A stretch of DNA of 51,066 bases from Candidatus Protoclostridium stercorigallinarum (GTDB taxonomy: Bacteria > Bacillota > Clostridia > Christensenellales > Pumilibacteraceae), in contig DXHS01000070.1 of the NCBI GenBank assembly GCA_019113275.1, positions 1 through 51,066 on the forward strand, read 5' to 3'. The position numbers and the translations under genes were made by a program. The notes beneath the pieces were generated by a model, which was given only the letters and a program-made list of their open reading frames with translations, did no database searches and was not told the origin of the DNA. This document shows positions 34,930 through 43,984 of this stretch, piece after piece (position 1 is the first letter of the stretch; the number at the start of each line of letters is the position of its first letter).

Positions 34930-34989
34930 AAAGCAAAACGGTATTCAAAAAAACGTGCGCGGGCGGGCTTACTGCCCTCCGCGCCGCAT

Positions 34990-35076
34990 GCCGCCGTGGT
35001 GAAATTGGCAGACGCGCCGGACTCAAAATCCGGTGGTAGTGATACCGTGTCGGTTCGACCCCGACCGGCGGCACCA
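34990..35076 (+). tRNA. tRNA-Leu, anticodon CAA
   Basis: An 87-nt class II tRNA with encoded CCA. Acceptor GCCGCCG/CGGCGGC, anticodon arm CCGGA-CTCAAAA-TCCGG (anticodon CAA, codon UUG), a variable arm TGGTAGTGATACCGTG and T arm GTCGG-TTCGACC-CCGAC are all visible. It is also a likely integration site, because its 3' end is repeated downstream. Confidence 0.95.
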
Positions 35077-35116
35077 AACGACAGAGGCAGGGCTTTACGT
35101 CCTGCCTCTGTCGTTT
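35076..35116 (+). terminator. Terminator of tRNA-Leu
   Basis: A 16-bp stem AAACGACAGAGGCAGG / CCTGCCTCTGTCGTTT with a 9-nt loop, starting at the tRNA 3' end. Confidence 0.88.
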
Positions 35117-35247
35117 GCTGCCGCCGCTCTGAGGTGTGAACCGAGTTTCCCGCAGGGAAACCTCGGGTCGCTCAGCCGAGGGCGCGCGCCTTCAAGCGCG
35201 CCCGAACGCCAACGCTGTTTTGCGAGAGGGAGCGAGCAAAACGCGTT
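35117..35247 (+). other. Hairpin-rich non-coding module between the two tRNA ends
   Basis: Three consecutive hairpins can be drawn: CCGAGTTTCCC/GGGAAACCTCGG (about 35143-35165), GGGCGCGC/GCGCGCCC (about 35180-35203) and TTTTGC/GCAAAA (about 35218-35241). ORFs crossing this stretch are short and unconvincing. It may be remnant island DNA or a small structured RNA. Confidence 0.45.
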
Positions 35248-35393
35248 ACCCCGACCGGCGGCACCAAAGCAAAAACGCCCCTTCGCGGGCGTTTTTGCTT
35301 TGGCGCTCCTTGGGAATCGAAAATTTGCGGGAGAGAAGCAGCAAAAAAATCAAAGCAACGAGAGCAAATTATTCGCTCAGCCGAGGGCGCGCG
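35168..35393 (+). repeat. Second 21-bp direct repeat, 205 bp apart
   Basis: TCGCTCAGCCGAGGGCGCGC plus G occurs at 35168-35188 and 35373-35393. Together with the tRNA-end repeat it shows two diverged tandem modules of about 200 bp downstream of tRNA-Leu. Confidence 0.8.
35266..35305 (+). terminator. Strong terminator after the duplicated tRNA end
   Basis: AAAGCAAAAACGCCC / GGGCGTTTTTGCTTT, a 15-bp stem with a 6-nt loop and internal T5, attached directly to the second tRNA-end copy. Confidence 0.85.
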
Positions 35394-35478
35394 GCTAATG
35401 CGTGCTTTTTGTCATTCGAAAACCCCACCATAGTGGCGGAGTTCGGAAAAGGCGAAATTCAATGAGGATCGTTTGTAT
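35306..35478. other. Non-coding, AT-rich start of the accessory segment
   Basis: Apart from the second 21-bp repeat (35373-35393), nothing gene-like is seen. The ORFs listed on the plus strand here have no ribosome binding site and low-complexity translations. Confidence 0.4.
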
Positions 35479-35631
35479 TTATTTTTCATACAGTTTTTTA
35501 ATTTTTTCTTGTTTTTCTTTTGACTCTTGTTTTTTACGATGGTATTTTGCGTATTCTTTAATTATTGCAAGCAATAGTATAGTACTGCAAATAATTGCAG
35601 CACATATTATTATGGTACATTGCCAATCAAT
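35479..35631 (-). CDS. Possible 50-residue membrane microprotein without canonical start
   Basis: Directly after the TAG of the gene at 35635-36066, and in the same frame, lies an open stretch: a hydrophobic helix (CTIIICAAIICSTILLLAII) and a Lys/Glu-rich tail ending KLYEK. The first usable codon is ATT at 35631, with AAGGAG 9-12 nt upstream; no ATG, GTG or TTG is in frame. It could be made from a rare ATT start, by TAG readthrough as a tail of the upstream protein, or be a decayed end. The membrane-plus-charged pattern is not random-looking. Confidence 0.35.
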   Translation of the reverse strand: MDWQCTIIICAAIICSTILLLAIIKEYAKYHRKKQESKEKQEKIKKLYEK

Positions 35632-35634
35632 GGT

Positions 35635-36066
35635 CTATTCTTCTCCTTTTGCTTCTGATTTTACTTTTTCCCATTCTTCTTTAAGAATGATTTTTGATAG
35701 TTCAATGACTTTATCCCTTATTGCGAGATAATTTGTCGATGTGCAGACGTCTAAAATTTTTATTTGGTTATGCAACATTAAGTGCAAGGTTTCTCTTTCG
35801 TTCAAACGTAAAACTACTTGATTCCTCGCTATGTAATACTCAAGTGGTTTATAACTGTTTTGTGCCATATTTGCCAGCGCGAGCATTTCAGAAATGTATT
35901 GCCGCATTTCGTTCAACCAAATATTTCTTTTTTCCGAAACAGTTTGATTGAAAATCACTTTTTTGTTCTGTCGCTTTGACCATATATAACCGACAAGTGT
36001 AATTCCTGCTGTTATTAAGACTCCTGATACGGAGATAATTGCGACAATTACTTCCTTATCTAACAT
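35635..36066 (-). CDS. Single-pass membrane protein of unknown function
   Basis: A 143-residue protein. An N-terminal membrane helix (VIVAIISVSGVLITAGITLVGYIW, about 8-31) is followed by a cytoplasmic helical domain rich in Asn, Glu and Leu. Proteins of this form are frequent on mobile islands, where their job is unknown. It is AT-rich, sits just inside the tRNA-Leu-linked accessory segment, and may be followed by a second small membrane ORF in the same frame. I do not recognise a family. Confidence 0.65.
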   Translation of the reverse strand: MLDKEVIVAIISVSGVLITAGITLVGYIWSKRQNKKVIFNQTVSEKRNIWLNEMRQYISEMLALANMAQNSYKPLEYYIARNQVVLRLNERETLHLMLHNQIKILDVCTSTNYLAIRDKVIELSKIILKEEWEKVKSEAKGEE

Positions 36067-36350
36067 TTAACCACCTTCGTTCGTGAATTTTATACGTGAA
36101 TTTTATATTAGAGCAGCGTAAAAGGTATAAAACCTTTGTCTGCCTTTCAAAAACCGTGCTTTTGGTCGAGAGCAAAACGGATTTCTGCCTTAGAAAGCTT
36201 AATTTTCTATAAAGTTAACATAAACTTTATTAATTTCAGACGGCTCAGATCCTTTAGGTCTTATTAAGCTTCATTCGGCCTTTGTCATATAAATGTCGAT
36301 CGTATATCTTGATTTTTTTTGTTATTAAATATCTCTTTAATAATCGTTCT
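36067..36350. other. AT-rich intergenic region, nothing identified
   Basis: No convincing ORF. One TTATTAAA/TTTAATAA hairpin (around 36323-36344) is not placed to terminate either neighbour well. Confidence 0.4.
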
Positions 36351-38723
36351 TTAAGAGCGTTTCCAATAACGGTTAGTATAAGTGCTATTAAGATACTTCG
36401 CTGCGGTAGACGCGTTTGCCAACGAAGGTCCGGGAATACTCGCTCCGCTTGTCGCGGTACTATCATAAGAATACCACCAGCCGTTCGGATGTTCAAACAC
36501 TACGCTCGTCAGGCTGCTGCAATCACTGAACGCATAAGTTCCGATGCTCGTTACATTATTTCCGATCGTTACGCTCGTCAGTCCGCTGCAATCACTGAAC
36601 GCATTATTTCCGATACTCTTTACGCTGTCGGGGATCGTTATACTCGTCAGCCTGTTGCAGCCATTGAACGCAGAGCCCCCGATGCTCGTCACGCCGTTTC
36701 CGATCGTTACGCTCGTCAGTCCGCTGCAATCTCTGAACGCAGAGCCCCCGATACTCGTTACGTTGTCTGGGATCGTTATACTCGTCAGTCCGCTGCAACC
36801 ACTGAACGCAGAAATCCCGATGCTCGTCACGCCGTTTCCGATCGTTACGCTCGTCAGTCCGCTGCAATTATAAAATGAACATTCACCGATATTCGTTATG
36901 CTATCGGGAATGACAAGATCAGTAATAAGTTTACCACTCAAATATAAGTTATGTGCATGATAGAGCGGATTCGCAGTAGAGTCGTTAAATTCTATCGTAC
37001 ACCATGCCGCAAGATCGGTTATATGCACTTCCGTCAGTCCGTTGCATTCCGAGAATGCAGAACTTTCAACGCTCGTCACGCCGTTTCCGATCGTTACGCT
37101 TGTCAATCCGCTACAATCAAAGAACGCACGCCGTCCTATGCTCGTCACGCTGTTTGGTATCGTTATACTCGTCAGATTGTTGCAATATCCGAACGCATAA
37201 TCTCCGATGCTTGTCACGCTGTCGGGGATAATAAGCTCAGTTATGAACTTGCCGTTCAAATACAAGTTATGTGCATAATAAAGCGGGTTAGCAGTAATTC
37301 CGTCAAATTCGATTGCACACCATGCCGCAATGTCGCTTATATGTATTTCCGTCAGTCCGCTGCAACCCGAGAATGCAGAACTTTTAATGCTCGTTACGCT
37401 GTTTCCAATCGTTACGCTTGTTAATCCGCTACAATCAAAGAACGCAGAACCCCCGATGCTCGTTACGCCGTTTCCGATCGTTACGCTCGTCAACCCGCTA
37501 CAACCATAGAACGTAAGATCACCGATGCTCTTTACATTGTCGGTGATAACAAGGTCGGTTATGAATTTGTCGTTCAAATACAAGTTATGTGCATAATAAA
37601 GCGGATTAGCAGGAATTCCGTCAAATTCTATCGCACACCATGTTGCAATATCGGTTATATGCACTTCCGTCAGCCCGCTGCACTTATAGAACGCAGAATC
37701 CCCGATGTTCGTCACACCGTTTCCAATCGTTACGCTCATCAGCCCGCTACAATCATAGAATGCAAAACTTCCTATGCTCGTCACGCTGTTTCCGATCGTT
37801 ATGCTCATCAACCCGCTACATTCATAAAACGCAGAGCCCCCGATGCTCGTTACATTGTCCGGAATGGCAATGCTCTTCAGATTGCTGCAATATCTGAACG
37901 CAGAGCCCCCGATACTCGTTACGCTATTTCCAATCGTTACGCTTGTCAGTCCGCTGCACTCATAGAATGCAGAATCCCCGATGTTCGTTACGCCGTTTCC
38001 AATCGTTACGCTCGTCAGCCCGCTACAACCAAAGAATGCGCCGTAAAGAAGATCACCGCCCGTTATCGTCACATTCCTGAGCGATGTGGGAATGTAATAG
38101 TATTCATAATAGGAATTTGCATAAAACTGTTTTGCGCTGGTTCCGCCCGTATAACTGCTCGTGCCAAAAATATAACCGAACAACGTGGAAGCGGAAGCGT
38201 CCGCTGCCGAAGCTTTGCCGCCCACGAACGGGAGCGTTATGCTCGTCAAACTGCTGCAACCAAAGAATGCGGAATTACCTATGCTCGTTACGCTGTGGGG
38301 AATTGTTGCGTTCTTAAGGCTGATGCAATTATTGAACGCTGACCCGCCGATGCTTGTTACGCTGTCTGAGATTGTTATGCTTGTAAGGTTGCTGCAATTT
38401 GAGAACGCAGAATTTCCGATATTCGTCACGTTGTCGGGAATCGTCACACTTGTAAGTGAGCTGCAATCACGAAACGCATACCGCCCTATACTCGTCACGC
38501 TATTACCGATGGTCACGCTTGTCAGTCCGCTGCAATCTTCAAACGTAGAATCTTCGATACTTGTTACGCTGTTTGGGATCGTCACGCTCGTCAGTCCGCT
38601 GCAACCACGGAACGCATAACTTCCGATGCTCTTCACGCCGTTTCCAATCGTCACGCTCGTCAGTCCGTTGCAATCACGAAACGCATAACTTCCGATGCTC
38701 TTCACGCCGTTTCCAATCGTCAC
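36351..38723 (-). CDS. BspA-like leucine-rich-repeat protein, C-terminal part after an in-frame TGA
   Basis: A 790-codon ORF in the same frame as the gene at 38739-42656, separated from it only by the TGA at 38739-38741 and five sense codons. It consists almost wholly of 23-residue BspA-type repeats (LTSVTIGNGVTSIGxxAFxxCSG). Roughly every six repeats these are broken by a module 'HITDIAAWCAIEFDG...NPLYYAHNLYLNGK'. The end (PNGWWYSYDSTA...NRYWKRS) looks like a natural BspA C-terminus. There is no signal peptide or ribosome binding site at 38723, so this is best seen as the separated second half of one surface protein of about 2,100 residues. Confidence 0.8.
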   Translation of the reverse strand: MTIGNGVKSIGSYAFRDCNGLTSVTIGNGVKSIGSYAFRGCSGLTSVTIPNSVTSIEDSTFEDCSGLTSVTIGNSVTSIGRYAFRDCSSLTSVTIPDNVTNIGNSAFSNCSNLTSITISDSVTSIGGSAFNNCISLKNATIPHSVTSIGNSAFFGCSSLTSITLPFVGGKASAADASASTLFGYIFGTSSYTGGTSAKQFYANSYYEYYYIPTSLRNVTITGGDLLYGAFFGCSGLTSVTIGNGVTNIGDSAFYECSGLTSVTIGNSVTSIGGSAFRYCSNLKSIAIPDNVTSIGGSAFYECSGLMSITIGNSVTSIGSFAFYDCSGLMSVTIGNGVTNIGDSAFYKCSGLTEVHITDIATWCAIEFDGIPANPLYYAHNLYLNDKFITDLVITDNVKSIGDLTFYGCSGLTSVTIGNGVTSIGGSAFFDCSGLTSVTIGNSVTSIKSSAFSGCSGLTEIHISDIAAWCAIEFDGITANPLYYAHNLYLNGKFITELIIPDSVTSIGDYAFGYCNNLTSITIPNSVTSIGRRAFFDCSGLTSVTIGNGVTSVESSAFSECNGLTEVHITDLAAWCTIEFNDSTANPLYHAHNLYLSGKLITDLVIPDSITNIGECSFYNCSGLTSVTIGNGVTSIGISAFSGCSGLTSITIPDNVTSIGGSAFRDCSGLTSVTIGNGVTSIGGSAFNGCNRLTSITIPDSVKSIGNNAFSDCSGLTSVTIGNNVTSIGTYAFSDCSSLTSVVFEHPNGWWYSYDSTATSGASIPGPSLANASTAAKYLNSTYTNRYWKRS

Positions 38724-40620
38724 GCTCGTCAGTCCGCTTCAACCACGGAACGCATAACTTCCGATGCTTTTCACGCTGTCAGGGATCGTTATGCTTGTCA
38801 GTCCATTGCAACTACTGAATGCTGAATCGCCGATATTTGTTACGCTGCCCGAGATCATTACACTAGTTAGTCCGCTGCAACCCGAGAATGCGCTCTTTTC
38901 TATGTTCGTCACACCGTTCCCGATCGTCACACTTATAATATACCGGGATTCCGTGAATAAATATGCAGGGATCGTCTGTACGTCATCTCCGAACACGACT
39001 GTGATTCCATTACTATTGGATCCGGCATTCACAAATACAGCAGAGGAACTTGATGAATTATTTACGGAAATCGCATTATAATTAATTTGCGTTATTCCGA
39101 CACAATTATAGAACGCATGCTCGCCAATTCTCGTTACACTGTTTCCGATTGTTACGTTTATCAGTCCGCTACAACCTTCAAATGCATAATTTCCGATGCT
39201 TATTACGCTGTCGGGAATGGTGGTGCTCGTCAGCCCGCTGCAATTATAGAATGTATAATTGCCGATGCTCGTTACGCTGTTTGGAATGATAAGGTCGGTG
39301 ATAAGTTTACCACTCAAATATAAGTTATGTGCATAATAGAGCGGATTCGCTGTAGAATTGTTAAATTCGATCGCACACCATGCCGCAATATCTGTTATAT
39401 GCACTTTCGTCAGCCCGTGGCATCCTTCGAATGCTGAACTGCCGATTCTCGTCACGTTACTCCCGATCGTTACACTGATTAAATTGGGGCGATAGGACGA
39501 ATAACTTACATAGAATAGGTAAGCCGGGATTGTTTTAACGGTATCCCCGAAAACTATCGTGATACCTGTGTCGTCGCCCGCATCACAGAATATATAGTTT
39601 GCAGAAGTCAGATCGTCAATTGCTATTGCATTATAGTAAATCGTCGTCAGCATGCGGCAACCATAGAATGCATAATTTCCGATGCTTGTTACGCATTTAC
39701 CGATAGTCATGTCCGTCAAATTGCTGCAATTTTGGAATGCATAACTACCGAGGCTCTTAACACTATCGGGGATGGTTACGCTTATAAGCGAACTGCAATC
39801 ACTGAACGCATATTTTTCGATATTTGTCACGCTGTTGGGAATATTCACGCTTGTAAAACTGCGGCAACCATAGAACGCGGCAAAAGCAATTTTTTCCACG
39901 CCGTCAGGGATGACAAGTTTCGTTACTAACTTTCCGTTGAGATATAGGTTGCCGGCATAGTATAACGGATTATCTGTAGCAGCAGATAAGGAAATACTAC
40001 ACCAAGCGGCCATATCGGTAATATTTACACGCTTTAATCCGTCGCAATTATAGAATGCGCCATAAATACTTGTTACTCTGTCATGAATTTTCACACTCGT
40101 CAGCCTGCTGTATCCGCCGAACACATATTTACCGATGCTCGTTATATCACTCGGAATCACCAAATCGGTCACAAGCTCACCGTTCAGATAGAGATTCTGT
40201 GCATAAGACAACGGATTTGAATGAAAATTCGAAAACGATATCCTGCACCAAGCCGATAGATCGGTTATATATACGTTTGTCAATCTGCGGCATCTTTCGA
40301 ACGCAGAACTTTCGATACTCGTTACGTCGTTCCCGATCGTTACGCTCGTCAACCCGCTACAATCATAGAACGCGCCGTAAAACAGATTGCCGCCCGTTAT
40401 CGTCACACTCCTGAGTGATGTGGGAATGTAATAGTATCCATAATAGGAACTTGTATAATAAGAATTTGCATAATACTGTGTTGTACCGGTTCCACCCGTA
40501 TAACTGCTCGTGCCGAAAATATAACCGAACAACGTGGAAGCGGAAGCGTTCGTCGCCGAAGCGCTGCCACCCACGAACGGAAGTGTGATACTTTCCAGAG
40601 ATGCACAACCTGAAAATGCA
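36480..40620 (-). repeat. Array of 69-bp leucine-rich-repeat units
   Basis: Tens of 69-bp (23-codon) units with the core ATCGTTACGCTCGTCAGTCC (plus-strand view). Some neighbours, such as those around 38570-38760, are almost identical, which shows recent duplication or conversion. Longer modules of six or so repeats are themselves repeated. Confidence 0.85.
38739..38741 (-). other. In-frame TGA at a conserved cysteine position of the repeat
   Basis: Minus-strand reading is GGT-TGA-AGC where the neighbouring copy at 38599-38607 reads GGT-TGC-AGC within a long identical context. A single C-to-A change therefore splits the gene. The frame is open on both sides and the repeat phase is unbroken. 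Confidence 0.85.
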
Positions 40621-42691: not shown

Positions 42692-42719
42692 ATTATAGCG
42701 TATTCTAAACGTTCATCAA
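42692..42719 (-). promoter_or_regulatory. Possible fixed promoter of the BspA gene
   Basis: On the minus strand TTGATG (42719-42714), 16 nt, TATAAT (42697-42692), about 30 nt before the start codon. Its -35 box lies in the outer arm of the 27-bp site at 42711-42737, so a protein bound there would block it. Confidence 0.5.
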
Positions 42720-42737
42720 ATACTATATTTGATGAAC
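42711..42737. repeat. 27-bp site 1: inverted 10-bp arms around a 7-bp core
   Basis: Arms GTTCATCAAA and TTTGATGAAC flank the core TACTATA. The layout fits a tyrosine-recombinase crossover site and equally fits a dimeric repressor operator. Confidence 0.75.
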
Positions 42738-42817
42738 AAATACAAGCGCAGAACACATAAAAACACTTTGGCAATACTAATTCAATAAAATATTTCATAT
42801 AAAAATATCCGAATATA

Positions 42818-42846
42818 TTGCTATTTTTTAATCATTCTGTTATAAT
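42818..42846 (+). promoter_or_regulatory. Promoter between the two 27-bp sites, pointing away from the BspA gene
   Basis: TTGCTA (42818-42823), 17 nt, TATAAT (42841-42846). Transcription would run rightward through site 2 into a weak terminator near 42962 and meets no gene before the next promoter. Confidence 0.6.
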
Positions 42847-42858
42847 GTAAAAAAGAGT

Positions 42859-42885
42859 GTTCATCAAATATAGTAATCTATGAAC
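42859..42885. repeat. 27-bp site 2: inverted copy of site 1
   Basis: Left arm GTTCATCAAA, core TATAGTA (reverse complement of the site 1 core), imperfect right arm ATCTATGAAC. As reverse complement it matches site 1 at 24 of 27 positions. Confidence 0.75.
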
Positions 42886-42920: not shown

Positions 42921-42962
42921 CGGAACTTTTGTTTTGTATCGTAAAGAGCGTTCCGCTTTTTT
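42921..42962 (+). terminator. Weak terminator downstream of the rightward promoter
   Basis: CGGAAC / GTTCCG stem followed by C and T6. Confidence 0.5.
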
Positions 42963-43002: not shown

Positions 43003-43031
43003 TTGTCAAACGGCGGGACGTGTGGTATAAT
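43003..43031 (+). promoter_or_regulatory. Promoter of the DUF1295 gene
   Basis: TTGTCA (43003-43008), 17 nt, TATAAT (43026-43031), with a CCCGTTACGGAGACGGG hairpin in the leader. Confidence 0.75.
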
Positions 43032-43078: not shown

Positions 43079-43984
43079 ATGGAAGAGACGGAAAAGAAAG
43101 ATATTTCGGAAAGCAGGGCTTTCGGGATCGCGGTCATCGCGCTCGTATACATCGCGGCTGCGGCGGGCGGTATCGCGCTCGGCTTGCTGCTGCCGTTCGG
43201 GCTGTGGCTGAACACGCTTCTTGCGGATATCGCGGCGACGGTGTTCGTATTCATATTCAGCGTAGCGCTGCGCAATGCTTCGGTATACGACGCGTATTGG
43301 AGCGTGCAGCCGATAGTCATACTTGCGGCGTGCCTCGCAGTGAGCGGCGCGAGCCCCGCAGGACTGATAATATTCGTACCCGTATGCGTTTGGGGCGTGC
43401 GGCTGACCGTCAATTGGGCGTATACCTTCAAAGGGCTGGGCGCGCAGGATTGGCGCTATACGATGCTCAAAGAAAAAACGGGCGCGTTCTACCCGATTAT
43501 AAATTTCATAGGCATACATATGGTACCCACTCTCGTGGTATGGGGATGCACGCTGCCTGCGGCATATGCGGTCGTGCTGAAACCGGAGATCAACGCCGGG
43601 TACATAATATTCGCCGCGCTCGTGCTTACGTCCTGCGTGTGGCAGGGGATAACTGACGCCCAGATGCACGTTTTCCGCGCTCGCGGGAGCGGCGGGTTCA
43701 TACGCGAGGGGCTGTGGAAGTATTCCCGCCATCCCAATTACCTCGGGGAGATCTCCGTATGGTGGGCGGTGGCGCTGGCGAGCTTATGCGTGCAGCCGGG
43801 CATGTGGTACCTTATCTTCGGCGCGGTCGCGAATACGCTGCTCTTTATTTTTATAAGCATACCGCTCGCGGAAGGGCACCAATCCCGCAAACCTGGATAT
43901 GAAGAGTACAGACGCGCCACGCGCGCATTGCTGCCGCTTTATAAGCGCAGCCGCACGGCAGAGCCGAAAGGGGAAAACGAATGA
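43079..43984 (+). CDS. DUF1295 / steroid-reductase-like membrane protein
   Basis: A 301-residue protein with about seven membrane helices. The family signature RHPNYLGEISVWW lies in the C-terminal third, as in DUF1295 proteins and the related isoprenylcysteine methyltransferases and steroid 5-alpha reductases. An NADPH- or SAM-dependent change of a lipid is likely, but the substrate is unknown. The preceding CAAGAGG is the ribosome binding site. Its stop overlaps the next start as ATGA. Confidence 0.87.
   Translation: MEETEKKDISESRAFGIAVIALVYIAAAAGGIALGLLLPFGLWLNTLLADIAATVFVFIFSVALRNASVYDAYWSVQPIVILAACLAVSGASPAGLIIFVPVCVWGVRLTVNWAYTFKGLGAQDWRYTMLKEKTGAFYPIINFIGIHMVPTLVVWGCTLPAAYAVVLKPEINAGYIIFAALVLTSCVWQGITDAQMHVFRARGSGGFIREGLWKYSRHPNYLGEISVWWAVALASLCVQPGMWYLIFGAVANTLLFIFISIPLAEGHQSRKPGYEEYRRATRALLPLYKRSRTAEPKGENE

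Follow-up and report, generated by a model that had tools for sequence, protein, structure and literature searches.

Upstream of a large surface protein gene, the cwpV locus of C. difficile carries an invertible segment of 195 bp with imperfect 21-bp inverted repeats (PMC2784873). There, the tyrosine recombinase RecV works in trans, the promoter is located upstream of the inverted segment, and the OFF state is reached through a terminator (PMC2784873). The fimS element of E. coli is 314 bp long (PMC9993118), and a 2025 survey links inverton group 139 of the Clostridia to tyrosine recombinase group 35 (PMC11892184). Our literature search found no paper on the switch family described below in the Pumilibacteraceae clade, and none on invertons in Christensenella or on invertible promoters associated with BspA.

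Here, we analyze a locus of Candidatus Protoclostridium stercorigallinarum at which two inverted sites and a predicted promoter precede the gene of a giant BspA-like adhesin. The whole stretch of DNA that was analyzed, 51,066 nucleotides in length, is referred to as the window. We are confident that the element is an invertible-promoter switch which works as described here or did so until recently, and that it is a switch by origin appears close to certain.

Inverted sites and predicted promoters at the adhesin gene

The features of the locus, in window coordinates, are as follows.

36351-38723, minus strand: continuation of the LRR reading frame after an in-frame TGA, 790 codons
38739-42656, minus strand: target gene, encoding a 1305-aa lipoprotein-like protein with Big_2, List_Bact_rpt and BspA-type LRR_5 repeats
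42692-42719, minus strand: predicted promoter-like site, fixed in position, TTGATG-16-TATAAT; the -35 box falls within the outer arm of site 1
42711-42737, plus strand: recombination site 1 (putative), adhesin side, a perfect palindrome with 10-nt arms and the 7-nt core TACTATA
42738-42858, no strand: putative invertible segment of 121 bp, assembled in the presumed OFF orientation; the assignment draws in part on inverted homologous loops in relatives
42818-42846, plus strand: predicted loop promoter TTGCTA-17-TATAAT, directed away from the adhesin
42859-42885, minus strand: recombination site 2 (putative), far side, in opposite orientation to site 1, with three mismatches in the outer arm
42943-42961, plus strand: predicted terminator-like stem, weak, at which the transcript of the OFF orientation would stop

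An earlier note on this DNA had placed two 27-bp inverted sites at 42711-42737 and 42859-42885, and both are found there. Site 1 reads GTTCATCAAA-TACTATA-TTTGATGAAC and site 2, on the plus strand, GTTCATCAAA-TATAGTA-ATCTATGAAC, so that the core of the second is the reverse complement of that of the first, as had been claimed. The same arms, GTTCATCAAA and TTTGATGAAC, had been attributed to both sites; this is right for site 1 only, since the outer (right) arm of site 2 is ATCTATGAAC, with three mismatches. The window pair consists of inverted sites with an identical core, inner arm and 7-bp core together making up 17 identical nucleotides, and complementarity of the inverted repeat reaches 87% over 31 nt.

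A search of 396 genomes of the order for the exact pair pattern returned 2, with one occurrence in the window and two in a genome designated G020 (control, 0); the pattern is absent from the viral contigs searched. Within the 1.65-Mb assembly to which the window belongs, the arm pattern with up to three mismatches returns the window pair and one weaker place, C29:14518, whereas a control pattern returns none. The proposed search for further 27-bp sites thus turned up this single additional place, which has three mismatches; it was set aside as a third site, since no partner was found for it and one arm belongs to a terminator stem.

The loop promoter TTGCTA-17-TATAAT does point away from the BspA-like gene, as noted earlier, and its score is equaled or exceeded in about 1% of shuffled loops. 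The terminator noted on that side is present as a stem at 42943-42961, but it is weak, with eight pairs of which three are G-C. When the segment is flipped computationally, the -10 box ends 93 nt before the adhesin ATG, close to the 95 nt first estimated; the segment would thus hold a promoter that, by prediction, is aimed at the neighboring gene in one of its two orientations. A further strong promoter-like sequence, TTGTCA-17-TATAAT (11/12), lies at 43003-43031 on the plus strand, in front of a DUF1295 gene at 43079.

We propose that both sites would be recombined by a tyrosine recombinase of the family whose genes adjoin equivalent pairs in relatives. The reaction would invert the 121 bp between the sites, which carry one predicted promoter of sigma-70 type. 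As assembled, this promoter would fire away from the adhesin and toward the weak terminator, corresponding to OFF; in the flipped orientation, with the -10 box at its computed distance from the adhesin start, it would probably drive the gene, corresponding to ON.

The adhesin reading frame itself is interrupted. An in-frame TGA (38723-38741, minus strand) ends the protein after 1305 codons, at a position where the repeat elsewhere has a cysteine; this is either a nonsense mutation or an assembly error. Past the end of the LRR frame, about 1.4 kb (34930-36350) contains short ORFs only.

Switch cassettes beside a tyrosine recombinase in related genomes

The site was found in 1 of 80 related genomes, namely G020, which belongs to the same family but another genus and carries it as two inverted pairs. 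One pair (contig C41) is flanked by a BspA-like lipoprotein gene on one side and by a gene for a 308-aa tyrosine recombinase on the other. On the far side of the second (contig C31), a copper-ATPase-like gene stands in place of a recombinase, and the start of that contig is the 5' end of a gene resembling a BspA-like lipoprotein gene. This pair, without an adjacent recombinase, offers a precedent for an orphan switch beside an enzyme encoded elsewhere in the genome.

Many genomes of the family encode homologues of the recombinase, frequently more than one each, and identity among the better matches is mostly 50-66%. A scan of GTDB genomes yielded at least 566 stretches encoding such homologues, with Pumilibacter intestinalis represented by one locus among the matches listed. 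The protein combines the domains Phage_int_SAM_3 and Phage_integrase, and the best sequence matches of the family in the Protein Data Bank are 6en0, 6emy and 6emz (E about 1e-28), which we take to be the Int of Tn1549 type, the file itself giving “Int protein”.

To survey the cassette, we sampled 40 neighborhoods and 80 named loci, of which 94 were distinct and had enough sequence, and counted a pair if it scored at least 14 within 420 nt after the recombinase stop codon. An inverted pair lies just downstream of the homologous recombinase in 53 of the 94 distinct loci, compared with 4 of 89 upstream regions, none of 88 more distant downstream regions, and 2 of 752 shuffles. Relaxing the threshold slightly gives 55 loci, whose loops range in length from 96 to 169 nt. 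Cassette loops are predicted to hold one strong promoter near one repeat; in these 55 loops, the stronger prediction is directed toward the recombinase in 34 and toward the gene past the switch in 11, with 10 unclear.

The 7-nt core is identical between partners in all 51 scored pairs, which is partly an effect of choosing the best-matching stretch, while arms differ within pairs and cores differ between loci. Tyrosine recombinases need an identical overlap region, and the constant core within pairs agrees with this. Judged by sequence appearance, the target genes of the cassettes comprise lipoproteins, giant surface proteins, and prepilin-like, DNA-methylase-like and NusG-like proteins. At three loci (L058:1750-2328, L064 and L045), the gene past the switch encodes a protein that starts PYWWYVLFV and resembles a NusG/UpxY-type antiterminator. 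At four others (L033, L037, L038 and L049), the gene past the switch resembles a DNA methylase or helicase, so control by this family of switches may extend to functions in restriction or defence.

The loci L056 (in G104) and L057 (in G014) come from two genomes of the P. intestinalis genus and share the same recombinase and lipoprotein genes, with flanks that are 97-98% identical. One copy of the segment, repeats included, has to be reverse-complemented to align with the other, and 154 of 157 nt are then identical; the two differ by a natural inversion. Further homologous pairs with loops in opposite orientation are L010/L071, L033/L109 and L171/L181, all four cases being comparisons between genomes rather than within one culture. 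At L056 and L057, the recombinase frame ends at or inside the first repeat, and the two copies differ in length by 1 nt immediately ahead of it, so the last codons differ between the two loci.

The closest relative found of the window adhesin is encoded on contig C170 of G004, a genome of the same genus, and is 55% identical over the first 155 residues. Its switch carries a predicted promoter, TTGACA-17-CATAAT, near the gene-side repeat and aimed at the gene, corresponding to ON; our script scored this loop as unclear because a weaker opposite-strand match scores nearly as high. A recombinase gene precedes the switch, with its 5' part broken. Homology between the window loop and the loops of relatives, among them G020, G101 and G004, was undetectable in either orientation. 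The invertible-promoter reading, put forward earlier as a candidate, gains support from three sides: the same anatomy beside a tyrosine recombinase in relatives, the natural inversions, and the ON-oriented relative in the same genus.

Present state of the window copy and alternative readings

In relatives, the pair is located immediately downstream of a G020-type recombinase; at the window it is not. A profile search of the window found neither a recombinase gene nor a remnant of one (best E = 2.8), bearing out the statement that no such gene lies there. Weak recombinase-like tblastn matches at 35833-35997 received no support from the profile search and were rejected. The position where relatives have the recombinase gene is occupied in the window by the DUF1295 gene, which is accompanied by no other tested window gene in the loci examined. 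The genome search for tyrosine recombinases suggested by the earlier note did recover one from the own assembly, a XerS-like enzyme encoded next to a lexA-like gene and the sole tyrosine recombinase detected there; a homologue of the G020-type recombinase was not found in this fragmented, 86%-complete assembly. The window copy is an orphan version of the recombinase-adjacent switch cassette.

A G020-type recombinase is present in several genomes of the window's own genus. In addition, the contig ends within 300 nt past the recombinase gene in 12 fetched loci, at least two of which are the same record, and a missing contig is therefore plausible for the window genome. Continued flipping of the window copy would then depend on an enzyme encoded in an unassembled or unbinned part of the genome. 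On balance, we lean toward a window element that is still switching today.

The strongest competing explanation, which we consider possible though the less probable of the two, is that a former invertible promoter has become a frozen relic, its recombinase lost and its segment locked, with the adhesin either silent or driven by a fixed promoter. The absence of the recombinase from both the window and the own assembly fits such a loss, but the incompleteness and fragmentation of that assembly, together with the frequent ends of family contigs just past this gene, weaken the argument. Decay is also seen in neighbors, where the G004 gene is broken and G101 retains just a 3' recombinase remnant, at a contig end. 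The in-frame TGA of the adhesin is a further point in favor of a relic, whereas the identical core and inner arm kept by sites 1 and 2 speak against it.

The relic reading also draws on the exceptional fixed promoter-like site, which had been pointed out before, including the position of its -35 box within the outer arm of site 1, and is borne out on the minus strand at 42719-42692. It lies outside the invertible segment, between site 1 and the start codon, and is directed toward the adhesin. Its score in the window is 14.6, which about 0.6% of shuffles equal or exceed; a score of 13 at that position is reached by none of 53 relatives, as opposed to 6% of shuffles. No fixed promoter is expected if the flipping promoter governs expression, and the window copy thus breaks the rule of the family. 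Being unusual in this way, the site leaves present-day switching at the window unproven, and viewed alongside the in-frame TGA and the failure to find a recombinase it suggests that the switch is possibly frozen or bypassed. In the bypassed case, the recombinase would be gone, the segment frozen OFF, and a fixed promoter, with TTGATG in the outer arm of site 1 as its -35 and a flanking -10 box, would have made a once phase-variable adhesin gene constitutive; we regard this reading as unlikely.

A reading as twin operators for a repressor or another dimeric regulator, with no inversion, was raised in the earlier note and has little left to recommend it. In its favor, many operators are palindromic, as site 1 is, and a promoter-like site extends into the outer arm of that site. 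However, the inverted asymmetry of the core is kept within pairs, the neighboring gene in relatives encodes a tyrosine recombinase and not a repressor, homologous loops occur inverted, and operators would explain neither the recombinase-adjacent pairs, nor the natural inversions, nor the ON relative. Just as improbable is a dif-like role of the sites, served by the XerS-like housekeeping recombinase, even though the search of the own assembly returned no other tyrosine recombinase, since the site-adjacent enzyme in relatives belongs to another subfamily and most related genomes searched are without this type of site, while dif would be expected in all.

Comparison with known systems

The preferred reading, an invertible promoter with an orphan site pair, extends recombinase-driven phase variation to mostly uncultured gut Clostridia, in a bacterial family that includes Pumilibacter intestinalis. 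The natural inversions, the broken recombinase genes and the orphan window copy provide cases for studying the gain and loss of switch enzymes.

Of the known recombinases, the Tn1549-type Int moves a transposon, whereas the recombinases of this family instead adjoin inverted repeats around a promoter. The window resembles cwpV in having inverted repeats before a large surface protein gene but has its predicted promoter inside the loop, and the cwpV arrangement of a promoter outside and a terminator inside the segment is not what we find. As in E. coli fimS, which is inverted by FimB/FimE, the predicted promoter lies within the inverted segment and orientation would set the ON or OFF state of a surface structure; in contrast to fimS, the segment here is 121 bp long, the 27-bp sites are palindromic, and the recombinase family, with Phage_int_SAM_3 plus Phage_integrase, belongs to another subfamily. 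The Clostridia invertons of group 139 with invertase group 35, as described in the survey, likewise combine a promoter flanked by short inverted repeats with surface-related genes and a nearby tyrosine-type recombinase; the window copy differs from that description in being without an adjacent recombinase. This inverton group and its invertases may be the same family as the switch of the window. The window switch belongs to a known and widespread kind, the flip switches of surface genes, an assignment that is well supported, and it is OFF in the assembly.
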